From NCBI RefSeq assembly GCF_003258605.2, contig NZ_CP031264.1:6750232-6814231 (forward strand): a stretch of DNA of 64,000 bases. Reading direction: 5' to 3'. The notes under the pieces are model-generated. The model was given only the letters and a program-made list of their open reading frames with translations. It was not told where the DNA came from and made no database searches. Shown here piece after piece: positions 29,025 to 33,674 of this stretch (within the stretch, counting starts at the first letter, position 1; every line of letters begins with the position of its first letter). A program made the position numbers and the translations under genes. The DNA comes from Peterkaempfera bronchialis (GTDB lineage Bacteria > Actinomycetota > Actinomycetes > Streptomycetales > Streptomycetaceae).

Positions 29025-29369
29025 TCAGAAGACGACCACAACGTTGTTGCCGAACCCGCCGAAGCCGAAGCCGGAGAAGCCACCGAAGCGGTGGTTCTCG
29101 AAGTGGCGGTGCTCGAAACGACGCTTCTCGAAGCGGTGCTCCTCGAAGTGGCGGAACTCGCGGTGGCGGCCCTCGCGGCCGAACTCGTGGCCGAACTCGT
29201 GGTGGCGGCCGCCCTCGTGCCGGCCGCCGAAGTCCTCGCGGTCACCGCCACCACCACGGTAGGTGCTGGCGGACTGAGGGCTGGCGGACGCGGTGGTGGC
29301 GAGCGGGACCACGGACGACGCCGCAGCCAGGGTCACGATGGCGGCAGCCCGCGCGATGCGCTTGGACAC
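29025..29369 (-). CDS. Secreted His/Arg/Phe-rich repetitive protein
   Basis: A 114-residue protein with a clear signal peptide (VSKRIARAAAIVTLAAASSVVPLATTASA). The mature part has no usual domain. It starts with GGGGDREDFGGRHEGGRHHEF, continues with 5-6-residue units alternating basic and aromatic residues (HREFRHFEEHRFEKRRF, then EHRHFENHRF), and ends GGFSGFGFGGFGNNVVVVF. The GTG at 29369 is preferred to one at 29378 because GAGG is then correctly spaced. Possible roles include metal binding, wall association or membrane activity; none is shown. A strong hairpin ends the transcript. Confidence 0.75.
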   Translation of the reverse strand: MSKRIARAAAIVTLAAASSVVPLATTASASPQSASTYRGGGGDREDFGGRHEGGRHHEFGHEFGREGRHREFRHFEEHRFEKRRFEHRHFENHRFGGFSGFGFGGFGNNVVVVF

Positions 29370-29789
29370 TTTAGTCACCTCATGTGTTGATCGGATTACC
29401 CCCCGACAGCTATGACGCTAGGCCGGGCCCTCGCCGGCCCGCATCCGCAGACCGCCGTCCGGGTACCGTGCGGGGGAGTCCGACTGGACGATTCGGACGA
29501 CGCCTCAGACTCCGTCCACCGCCGGGCTGAAAGGCCCCTGGGGCCCTGCTCGGACTGACGGCGCCCTCGTACGAGTGAATCCCCCATGGGGCCCATCCGG
29601 GTAGCCCGGGAAGGGTCCGGAGGCGGCAGACGGGGCCTGAGGGAGCGTGGGGTGGCCGCCGCGAGACCGGGCGAAGCGGGCTCGATGTCACCCGTGCGGC
29701 CCGGTGATTCGTACTCTTGTGCGGGCTGACAGTGCCGATCCGGCGGAGCGTCACCTGCCTGGCGCTGGAGGCGGGGGGTCCTCTTGGTG
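29370..29789. other. 420-bp gap without a recognised gene
   Basis: This gap holds the promoter and leader of the His/Arg/Phe-rich gene near 29370-29440 and the 3' flank of the DPBB-like gene near 29789. It contains an AGGCCCCTGGGGCCCT near-palindrome around 29540. No coding frame with a credible start and composition was found on either strand. Confidence 0.4.
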
Positions 29790-30652: not shown

Positions 30653-31522
30653 ATGAACGACCCCTGGGGGCTCAGCGGCCCGCAGTTCCTCGGTCTGTAC
30701 GCGGCCGGCTTCGCGGTCGCCCTGCTGCTGGCCTTCGCGGTCCGCGCCATGGTCAAGGCAGGCGGCGTCGCGGACGCGGCCGGGTCGCCCCCCGATGTGT
30801 ACACCCTGGCCTGGCTGGCCGGCGGCGTCCGGCAGGTCGTGGACACCGCGATCTTCGCCCTCGTCCAGGGCGGCCATCTGCGCACCGGCCGCAGCGGGGA
30901 ACTGACGGTCTGCGGCTCCATCCCCGCCGAGCCGGTGCAGTGGGCCGTACTGCGGGCCGCCGGGACGCGGCAGAGCATCCGCCGGGTCCCGCTGCACAGG
31001 GCGGCCCGGGTCACCCCGGAGGTCCAAGGGGTGCGGGAAGCCGCCGAGCGGCACGGACTGCTGCTCCGCCGGGGGCGCCGCGCCGTCGGGCGGCTGGGCG
31101 CACTGCCGATGGCCCTGCTGGTCGGCGTCGGCATCGCCCGGCTGGTCAACGGGGTCCGGCTGGGCCGCCCGGTCGGCCTGCTGGCGCTCTTTCTGCTGCT
31201 GTCGGTGGTCGTGACGGTGCTGCTCGCGCTGCTGCCGCCACGGCGCACCACTGCGGGTAAGCGGATGCTGGGGAGTGCGGTGAAGTCCCGCGGTCAGGCG
31301 GTCCAGTCGGTCGGCTGGGGTTCCGGCGGCGGTTCCGCAGTACCGGCGTCCGTGCTCGGGGTCGCGGTGCTGGGCGCCGCCGGGGTCACCGACCCGACGC
31401 TGCGCACCGCTCTCTTCGGGGCCACCTCGTCCTCGGGTTCGTCCTCTTCTTCCTCCTCCTGTTCTTCGAGCAGTTGCGGATCCTCCTCCAGCTGCGGCGG
31501 TGGCGGGGGGTGCGGCGGTTGA
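30653..31522 (+). CDS. TIGR04222-type membrane protein with spaced-cysteine C-terminal tail
   Basis: A 289-residue protein. One TM helix (residues about 10-33) is followed by a soluble winged-type region ([39 protein letters not shown]) and two adjacent TM helices (about 150-168 and 173-194), the plan of TIGR04222 proteins. The tail from 259 is almost only Ser and Gly and carries Cys270, Cys275, Cys281 and Cys287 at 5-6-residue spacing, ending GGGGGCGG. The DUF692 gene begins inside its last codons. The tail looks like a modification substrate for that enzyme. This inference rests on spacing and gene coupling, not on known chemistry. Confidence 0.85.
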
Positions 31523-32337
31523 TTCCCCGGCTGGGATTCGGCATCGGCTGGCGGCCGGAGATCGACCTCACCGTGGAGGGGCTGCCGGGGGTGGACTTCG
31601 TCGAGGCCATCGCCGAGGGGATCGATCCGGGTCGGCTCCCCGAGTCGCTCCGGGTGCTGCGCGCCCGGGGTACGTCGGTGGTCCCGCACGGCGTCTCGCT
31701 CGGCCTGGGCGGCGCGGAGCGGCCCGACCCGGCGCAGCTGTCCCATCTCGCGGCCTGCGCCGAGGCGTTGGACGCGCCACTGGTGAGCGAGCATGTGGCC
31801 TTCACCCGGGCGGGCGGTCTGGAGAGCGGCCATCTGCTGCCGGTGCCGCGTACCCGGGAGGCCCTGGAGGTGCTGGTCGAGAACGTCAGAGTCGCCCAGG
31901 ACCGGCTTCCGGTGCCGCTGGCGCTGGAGAACATCGCGCCGCTCTTCGGCTGGCCGCAGGATGAGTTGACGGAGGGGCAGTTCCTCTCCGAACTGGCAGC
32001 GCGGACCGGGGCGCTGCTGCTGGTCGATGTGGCGAACCTGCACACCGCCCGGGTCAACCTGGGGGTCGATCCGGTGGCGGTGCTGGACGAGCTGCCGCTG
32101 GAGCGGCTGGCGTATGTGCATGTCGCGGGCGGAGTGGAGCGCGGCGGCGTCTGGCACGACACCCATACCCACCCGGTGGCCGCGCCCGTCCTGGAGGTGC
32201 TGGCGGAGCTGGCCCGCCGCACCGACCCGCCCGGCGTACTGCTGGAGCGGGACGGCGACTATCCGCGCGACGACGAGCTGGCGGCCGAACTCGCCGTCAT
32301 CCGGCGGACCGTGGAGGAGACCCGCCGTGCCCGCTGA
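31510..32337 (+). CDS. DUF692 family enzyme (MNIO, multinuclear non-haem iron oxidase)
   Basis: A 275-residue TIM-barrel protein of the family that includes MbnB and other RiPP-modifying iron enzymes acting on Cys or neighbouring residues. The metal-ligand motifs are all present: [10 protein letters not shown] (His), SEHVAFT (Glu-His), [12 protein letters not shown] (Glu-Asn), [14 protein letters not shown] (Asp, Asn, His), AYVHVAGG (His), WHDTHTHPV (His, Asp, His) and LLERDGDYP (Glu). The GTG at 31510 or a TTG at 31519 may start it; both overlap the end of the TIGR04222 gene. It overlaps the partner gene by 11 bases. Its natural substrate is unknown, and the Cys tail next door is the best candidate. 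Confidence 0.9.
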
Positions 32338-32775
32338 CCGGTCCCGGCCCGCTGACCAGCCCGAGCCCGCCGACCGCCCCGAGCCCGCCGACCGCCCCGA
32401 GCCCGGCGGCGGGCGGGAGGCGCTGGCCCGGCAGCAGGCCGGGCTGCTGGCCGCCCTGGTGGCCGGGGGTGAACCGCCGCCCGGCTTCGACCCCGAGCGC
32501 CTGCGGGTGCAGACCCGCACGCTGCTGGAGAAGCGGCGCCGGGCGGTGGCGGCCCACCTCCCCGACCTGGCCGAGGCGCTGGGGAGGACCTGCCCCGGCT
32601 GTTCGCCGGGTACGCGGCCGACCGGCCCCGTCCGCCCGGCGGTGCCCATGCCGACGCGGCGGCCTTCGCCGCCCACCTCCGCGACCGGCGCCTGCTGCCG
32701 CCGGGCGTGCTGCCGGGCCGGTTCGGCGGACTGCTGCGGCGGCTGCGCGGGGGCCGAGTACGGCAGCACCCTTGA
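32327..32775 (+). pseudogene. MNIO partner-type protein, frame broken by one base
   Basis: Frame one begins at the GTG at 32327 and reads a PADRPE repeat leader, then LARQQAGLLAALVAGGEPPPGFDPERLRVQTRTLLEKRRRAVAAHLPDLAEALG. At about 32581-32586 the sense switches to the -1 frame. That frame continues DLPRLFAGYAADRPRPPGG, then AAAFAAHLRDRRLLPPGVL, and stops at 32775. Joined, the product would be about 149 residues and resembles the partner protein that often accompanies DUF692. The junction is CTG GGG AGG, so either one G is missing (mutation or sequencing error) or a -1 slip on GGG restores the frame. Staying in frame one gives a foreign C-terminus that runs into the protease gene. Confidence 0.7.
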
Positions 32776-32807: not shown

Positions 32808-33674
32808 ATGTCGAAACCCCATGGCACCCTCATGAAGAGATCCTTCGTCGGTGCGTCCGCAGCCGTGCTGCTCACCGGGGCCACCGCCCTGGCCGGCGCG
32901 TCACCCGCCCAGGCCCAGAGCCGACCCGCCCCCGCCGCCGCCACGGTCAGCTACGCCGGGACCGTGGCCCTCAGCAACTGCTCCGGATCCCTGGTGCGGA
33001 TGCCCAACTCCACCGCCCAGGACCACGCCCTCATCCTCTCCAACGGCCACTGCCTGACGACCGGGATGCCCGCCCCCGGCAAGGTCGTCGTCAACCAGTC
33101 CTCCACCCGCACCTTCACCCTGCTGGACTCCTCCGCCAGAAACCTCGGCACGCTCCGCGCCACCAAGGTCGCCTACGCGACCATGACGGACACCGATGTG
33201 TCGCTGTACGAGCTGAACACCAGCTACGCCGCCATCCGCAGCCAGTACGGCATCGACCCGCTGACGGTCTCCCCGGACCACCCGGTCCAGGGCACCGCCA
33301 TCAAGGTCGTCTCCGGCTACTGGAAGCGGACCTACTCCTGCTCCATCGACGGTTTCGTCCATGAGCTGCACGAGGGCGGCTGGACCTGGAAGGACTCGGT
33401 CCGCTACACCTCCGCCTGCGACACCATCGGCGGCACCTCCGGCTCCCCGGTGATCGACACCGCCACCGGACTGCTGGTCGCGGTGAACAACACCGGCAAT
33501 GAGGACGGAGCGCGCTGCACCGTCGACAACCCGTGCGAGGTCGACGAGAACGGCCAGGTGACGGTCCGCCAGGGCATCAACTACGCCGAGCAGACCTACC
33601 TCCTCACCTCGTGCTTCGCCCCCGGCAACAAGCTCGACCTCACCCTCCCCGGCTGCCGTCTGCCCCGACCGTAG
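32808..33674 (+). CDS. Secreted trypsin-like serine protease
   Basis: A 288-residue exported S1 protease. The signal peptide ends near residue 36 (ATALAGASPAQA). The triad is His81 (ILSNGHCLTTG), Asp130 (TDTDVSLYEL) and Ser213 (GGTSGSPVID). Cys pairs and the C-terminal SCFAPGNKLDLTLPGCRLPRP stay with the domain, and there is no obvious propeptide. An ATG at 32808 after TGTGGGG or one at 32832 could start it. Relatives in Streptomyces are glutamyl or trypsin-like endopeptidases. It lies downstream of, but probably independent of, the MNIO genes, since a 32-base gap follows a frame-broken gene. Confidence 0.9.
   Translation: MSKPHGTLMKRSFVGASAAVLLTGATALAGASPAQAQSRPAPAAATVSYAGTVALSNCSGSLVRMPNSTAQDHALILSNGHCLTTGMPAPGKVVVNQSSTRTFTLLDSSARNLGTLRATKVAYATMTDTDVSLYELNTSYAAIRSQYGIDPLTVSPDHPVQGTAIKVVSGYWKRTYSCSIDGFVHELHEGGWTWKDSVRYTSACDTIGGTSGSPVIDTATGLLVAVNNTGNEDGARCTVDNPCEVDENGQVTVRQGINYAEQTYLLTSCFAPGNKLDLTLPGCRLPRP

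Follow-up and report, generated by a model that had tools for sequence, protein, structure and literature searches.

A TIGR04222–MNIO–partner locus in Peterkaempfera bronchialis with a spaced-cysteine membrane-protein tail as candidate substrate

The window, a 64,000-nucleotide stretch of the Peterkaempfera bronchialis genome, contains a locus that we assign to a family of TIGR04222–MNIO–partner systems in which a cytosolic MNIO (DUF692) enzyme and its partner protein would oxidise Cys residues in the tail of a membrane-anchored TIGR04222 protein, a reading to which we give a probability of roughly 0.6. The tail is viewed as the substrate because operons of this type recur across phyla, Cys is found in every MNIO-linked Ser/Gly-rich tail of the class survey, the Cys residues are regularly spaced and the iron ligands of the enzyme are intact. 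Counted against this view are Cys-less neighbours of the enzyme in Streptomyces, Cys tails without an MNIO, a Cys–MNIO correlation that is not significant after correction for kinship, and a frameshift in the partner gene of the window. The original prediction that the tail is the MNIO substrate thus remains the best reading of the locus, although strict coupling between tail Cys and MNIO fails. Gene content and order, iron ligands, and the spacing and conservation of the Cys residues are established by the data below; the papers found report no measured modification of any TIGR04222 protein.

Architecture of the window locus

The match of the first open reading frame to the NCBIfam TIGR04222 profile covers residues 15–244 (E 9.9e-37, 126.8 bits; the threshold for membership is a score above 43 bits). 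Cys residues are located at positions 87, 270, 275, 281 and 287, the last four all lying inside a disordered Ser/Gly/Cys tail (residues 259–289), and the final 31 residues of the protein comprise 18 Ser, 9 Gly and 4 Cys. Profile score and tail composition bear out the prediction of a TIGR04222-type protein with a Ser/Gly tail containing these four Cys residues. The AF2 model has a pLDDT of 85, with values below 50 in the tail. Hydropathy and the model predict transmembrane helices at about residues 9–36, 151–169 and 175–193, with the folded domain sitting between helices 1 and 2, and describe a multi-helix protein with a disordered Ser/Gly-rich C-terminus. A Foldseek search with the model returned no significant match. 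The TIGR04222 protein at locus L225 (3434–4888) weakly matches the DUF2207 C-terminal domain (Pfam, E 6e-5); TIGR04222 may, as this similarity suggests, be a branch of a larger DUF2207 membrane-protein family.

The second gene encodes the MNIO (PF05114 match with E 2.5e-76 and 256.8 bits, the threshold being above 25 bits). The iron-coordinating positions of VcMbnB are H55, H91, E135, D165, N168, H194, D209, H211 and E238 (PMC8888699). All nine are filled in the window enzyme in alignments to MbnB and 3bww, the first, at the H55 position, solely through the 3bww alignment, and the expectation that the metal-ligand motifs of the DUF692 enzyme are intact is therefore confirmed. The end of the membrane-protein gene overlaps the start of the enzyme gene, as predicted. 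Translation of the MNIO more likely begins at the TTG at 31519, which is favoured by the four-base TTGA overlap that it creates and by its agreement with the N-termini of relatives; the earlier in-frame TTG at 31474, from which the frame is also open, is the less likely start.

The third gene resembles those of PME-type 2 partners in lying 3′ of the MNIO gene and in lacking a DUF2063 Pfam match. It had been described as a partner-type gene reached through an 11-base overlap; the overlap of its GTG at 32327 with the end of the MNIO gene stands, but the conserved partner core of 87 positions is divided between two frames, the switch occurring within a short run of G near 32585. As core positions 1–58 and 55–87 match in different frames, the gene is frameshifted in the assembly, and we reject it as a normal gene with one frame open over its core. 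The second frame stops at 32775, where the original prediction also ended the locus. Further 3′ on the same strand is a gene for a secreted trypsin-like serine protease (32808–33674, +), recognized by eye from GTSGSPV and NGHC motifs. At 29025–29378 (−) lies a gene for a small secreted protein whose body is rich in His, Gly, Arg and Phe and which may bind metal.

Table 1. Features of the window locus and locus groups used for comparison
Feature	Position or loci	Strand	Evidence
TIGR04222 membrane protein, 289 aa	30653..31522	+	NCBIfam TIGR04222, AF2 model, Cys positions
Coding part of Ser/Gly/Cys tail, putative modification substrate	31427..31519	+	Composition, Cys positions, spacing test
MNIO (DUF692, PF05114)	31519..32337	+	PF05114, alignments to MbnB and 3bww
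5′ part of PME-type-2-like partner gene, core positions 1–58	32327..32588	+	Partner HMM, E 3e-20
3′ part of partner gene, core positions 55–87	32575..32775	+	Partner HMM, E 4e-5
Streptomyces fusion loci	L106 6153–7586; similar: L108, L109, L116–L118, L120, L121, L125, L127, L184, L187		
GRDP-fused TIGR04222 loci	L250–L252, L254–L257, L259–L261, L265, L285, L286, L311–L314, L316, L325		

The same genome contains a second TIGR04222–MNIO–partner locus (L005 4637–6002, − strand; G000:C1:5262899–5264971), in which the gene order is MNIO, partner, TIGR04222. Its partner is intact, and its tail is longer, with seven Cys in the last 60 residues and CGSSSS-type repeats. Only the MNIO-first locus type occurs in the remaining two genomes of the genus. 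A plasmid search with the window locus gave no match. The frameshift could be an assembly error, the intact partner of the second locus could help out, or the window copy could be losing function. The last option, in which the system operates as described but the window copy is inactive and its broken partner reflects early decay, is consistent with the split core, the intact second locus and the locus type of the two other genomes. We hold it to be a serious possibility, though on the doubtful side of even, as the TIGR04222 and MNIO frames and all the ligands are intact and the break falls at a short run of G, a kind of site prone to sequencing error.

The partner HMM matches a protein at nearly all MNIO–TIGR04222 loci in Actinomycetes, and unbroken copies of the partner gene are present at loci besides the second one of this genome. 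The AF2 model of the intact partner homologue from the second locus is all-helical (mean pLDDT 89), and the best PDB chains in VIA-align are TglHI chain A (Z 6.5) and MbnC (Z 5.9), followed by a chain at 4.3; for a helical model Z scores of 6.5 and 5.9 are middling. This result supports, rather than proves, a relationship of the predicted partner fold to TglI and MbnC, which together with NGO1945 are the folds expected of a PME-type 2 partner. In our reading chain A of 8hci is TglI, since chain D is the DUF692 enzyme. A sequence-profile search with the partner against solved structures yielded chance matches only.

Cysteine tails and MNIO genes across genomes

The spacing of the tail Cys residues was analysed in 40 MNIO-linked Actinomycetes tails. 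Gaps of 4–7 residues account for 67% of Cys–Cys gaps in these tails compared with 27% in shuffles (each tail was shuffled, with 500 shuffles, among which the largest share of such gaps was 38%), while Cys pairs within 2 residues, which make up 21% in shuffles, are absent. The gaps in the window tail (5, 6 and 6) are at the mode of the distribution. In an alignment of 62 Cys-tail homologues, a set selected for having Cys, the columns of Cys275 and Cys287 are more than 90% conserved. The spaced-Cys tail is thus well beyond chance. It should be noted that codons for Ser, Gly and Cys differ by a single mutation, and Cys can therefore arise easily in Ser/Gly tails.

The class survey covered 257 Actinomycetes genomes and identified 95 TIGR04222 proteins in 71 of them; as the best 10 candidates per genome were scored, the absence of TIGR04222 from a genome is not firm. 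A genome-contig scan used the Cys-containing CGGGGGCG pattern, and its loci were excluded from the co-occurrence statistics. Within the survey all 39 Ser/Gly-rich tails near an MNIO contain at least three Cys, and none in MNIO-less genomes does once L166 is set aside. That locus was rejected as a Cys tail without an MNIO because it is a misframed open reading frame, and L156 (G352) was rejected as an exception because its contig ends inside the MNIO gene. A Cys tail is present in 36 of the 51 genomes with an MNIO and in 2 of the 20 without (Fisher p 3.5e-6), the latter two being L166 and L156; co-occurrence counts vary with the HMM cut-offs and with the size of the flanks (1.5–4 kb). Correction for kinship on a tree leaves 2–3 concordant and 0–1 discordant independent pairs, and the Cys–MNIO correlation is then not significant. 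The gene order TIGR04222–MNIO–partner recurs across Actinomycetes, and such operons were also found in Armatimonadota, Planctomycetota and Cyanobacteria, several of the genomes from outside the class being MAGs. The rule that a Cys tail is present if, and only if, there is an MNIO was rejected; it is true for Ser/Gly-rich tails in the Actinomycetes survey but is broken outside the class.

Exceptions of two kinds bear on this coupling. At most of the surveyed Streptomyces loci an MNIO–partner fusion, in which the enzyme motifs are intact, precedes a TIGR04222 protein devoid of a Ser/Gly tail or Cys. Fourteen Cys-less TIGR04222 proteins occur at these fusion loci of a Streptomyces clade, and three of the fourteen form a tandem with a copy that has a Cys tail (L112, L114 and L123). 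Because these three loci carry both copies, the Cys-tail copy may have been lost from other Streptomyces loci. The fusion is a single protein of 430–560 aa that adjoins a Cys-less TIGR04222 protein or none; at L106 a DUF4142 protein is encoded between it and TIGR04222.

The second kind comprises Cys tails without an MNIO. Outside the class there are TIGR04222 proteins of about 460–540 aa in which a GRDP-like domain forms the N-terminal part and the Cys/Gly tail is rich in CGGC. An MNIO is adjacent to none of the 19 GRDP-fused proteins compared with 17 of the 22 stand-alone Cys-tail TIGR04222 proteins. None of the 11 Armatimonadota genomes with the GRDP-fused form displayed an MNIO match when searched whole. 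Cys tails in genomes lacking an MNIO are also present in Limnofasciculus and Allokutzneria isolates. At L234 (3716–5918), from the Armatimonadota genome G530, which has no MNIO, a Cys-tail TIGR04222 gene is followed directly by a radical SAM/SPASM gene. Ranked by bits, the first NCBIfam match of the radical SAM/SPASM product is the thio(seleno)oxazole maturase SbtM, at 133 bits against a cut-off of 350, with other radical SAM families scoring close behind, and an SbtM-like maturase at this locus is only hinted at. For the Planctomycetota and Cyanobacteria loci that have a Cys tail but lack an MNIO, no radical SAM gene was found within flanks of 1.5 kb.

With Cys-less neighbours in Streptomyces and Cys tails in MNIO-less GRDP-fused proteins, the expectation that tail Cys and DUF692 would be lost together does not hold in general. 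An intact DUF692 enzyme beside a Cys-less neighbour, the arrangement originally named as speaking against the proposal, occurs at these Streptomyces loci at least. Both kinds of exception are consistent with a tail that functions without modification, for instance by coordinating metal through its thiols or by making protein contacts, while the MNIO has a different residue or protein as its target: Cys/Gly tails persist in the 19 GRDP-fused proteins (11 of them in MNIO-free genomes) and in the Limnofasciculus and Allokutzneria isolates, and Streptomyces has kept MNIO–partner fusions without a Cys tail. We consider an unmodified tail unlikely, as stand-alone Cys-tail proteins are regularly found in an operon with MNIO and partner in four phyla, and the 39 MNIO-linked Ser/Gly tails all contain Cys. 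It is conceivable, at long odds, that the Cys/Gly tails of TIGR04222 proteins form a general type of metal-binding brush, anchored to the membrane on its cytosolic side, which different classes of enzyme can mature. MNIO and partner would then mature most stand-alone forms and the radical SAM/SPASM enzyme the MNIO-less form at L234, with the GRDP-fused tails being used unmodified or with an unknown enzyme.

Membrane topology and proposed mechanism

The membrane orientation of the TIGR04222 protein was assessed from its charge distribution. Of 81 three-helix homologues, 79 carry more positive charge on the side that comprises the folded domain and the residues after helix 3 than on the opposite side, and the remaining two are tied. 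According to the positive-inside rule the positively charged side of a membrane protein is cytosolic, and the charge bias therefore points to an N-terminus outside the cell and a tail in the cytosol. A cytosolic tail would be on the side of the membrane where the MNIO and its partner are expected. The tail was previously placed in the periplasm (Antoine et al. 2025, PMC12452194), and in a reading that follows this proposal the weakly hydrophobic residues 227–247 of the window protein would form a fourth membrane helix and the tail would be modified before export. Consistent with translocation are the published topology (PMC12452194) and a fourth hydrophobic stretch above threshold, present in 24 of the 77 Cys-tail homologues that have two to four helices. 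The remaining 53, however, have only three hydrophobic stretches, the 20 residues after helix 3 carry a strong positive charge (mean of 5.3 Lys/Arg), and the fourth hydrophobic segment is a helix of 13 residues in the AF2 model. A translocated tail thus appears rather improbable.

In the mechanism that we favour, oxidation of a cytosolic tail, the TIGR04222 membrane protein would serve as the precursor, with its folded part remaining in the membrane and, as the charge bias suggests, both the main domain and the C-terminus on the cytosolic side. A cytosolic MNIO–partner complex would bind the precursor and oxidise Cys residues in the flexible Ser/Gly tail. The chemistry would most likely be of the thiooxazole type, generating heterocycles as in bufferins; this suggestion is made because the bufferin maturase model gives the enzyme its highest score, although one below the cut-off. 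Instead of a released peptide, the pathway would yield a tail that stays at the inner membrane face and would bind metal there.

Comparison with known MNIO systems

If the tail is modified, the reach of MNIO chemistry would go beyond small released peptides and include integral membrane proteins with modified tails, and cells would gain a metal-binding surface fixed to the membrane. The TIGR04222 proteins worth testing are the stand-alone ones with an MNIO and partner 3′ of them, and there are two natural control groups, the GRDP-fused Cys tails without an MNIO and the Streptomyces MNIO–partner fusions without Cys tails. The proposal that the tail is an MNIO substrate is already published: Antoine et al. 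(2025) described TIGR04222 proteins with Ser/Gly/Cys tails, linked them to MNIOs and PME-type 2 partners, and proposed subsets of them as MNIO substrates (PMC12452194). In that study more than a quarter of TIGR04222 proteins lack C-proximal Cys, a third of the genomes lack an MNIO, and partners are present in at least 10% of TIGR04222 clusters. The present analysis adds the frameshift, the spacing statistics, the widespread occurrence of the partner, operons in several phyla, a division of TIGR04222 proteins into stand-alone and GRDP-fused forms, and an argument from charge for placing the tail in the cytosol.

The window locus resembles the published TIGR04222–MNIO–PME type 2 clusters (PMC12452194) in gene content, bias towards Actinomycetota, Ser/Gly/Cys tail and proposed substrate. 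It differs in that the window partner is frameshifted and in that the charge bias favours a cytosolic tail as opposed to a periplasmic one; moreover, the partner, matched at nearly all MNIO–TIGR04222 loci of Actinomycetes, is commoner than the published figure. With respect to the bufferins (BufA–BufB–BufC), BufB is the best MNIO equivalog for the window enzyme, although the score of 180.5 bits is below the cut-off of 310. The window precursor is a multi-helix membrane protein without a Sec signal peptide, DUF2282 or Buf_6/12Cys, and the locus lacks a DUF2063 partner. The MNIO shares its iron ligands with the methanobactin (MbnA–MbnB–MbnC) and 3-thiaglutamate (TglH–TglI) systems, and the predicted partner fold may resemble MbnC and TglHI chain A. 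The enzyme, however, scores 38.7 bits against MbnB, far under the cut-off of 325, and the substrates in both systems are short peptides, unlike the membrane protein of the window.

Work on other MNIO pathways has shown that C-terminal motifs can be modified in proteins larger than 30 kDa and that lipidated products can be bound to the membrane (PMC12636315). Retention at the membrane, originally put forward as a difference from methanobactin- or bufferin-like free products, thus has a precedent. The DAG-RiPPs (PMC12636315) are similar to the system proposed here in that the MNIO product is at the membrane and a C-terminal motif is modified on a larger protein. They differ in being anchored through an N-terminal lipid after export, and in having substrates from the ChrH or oxazolin families.
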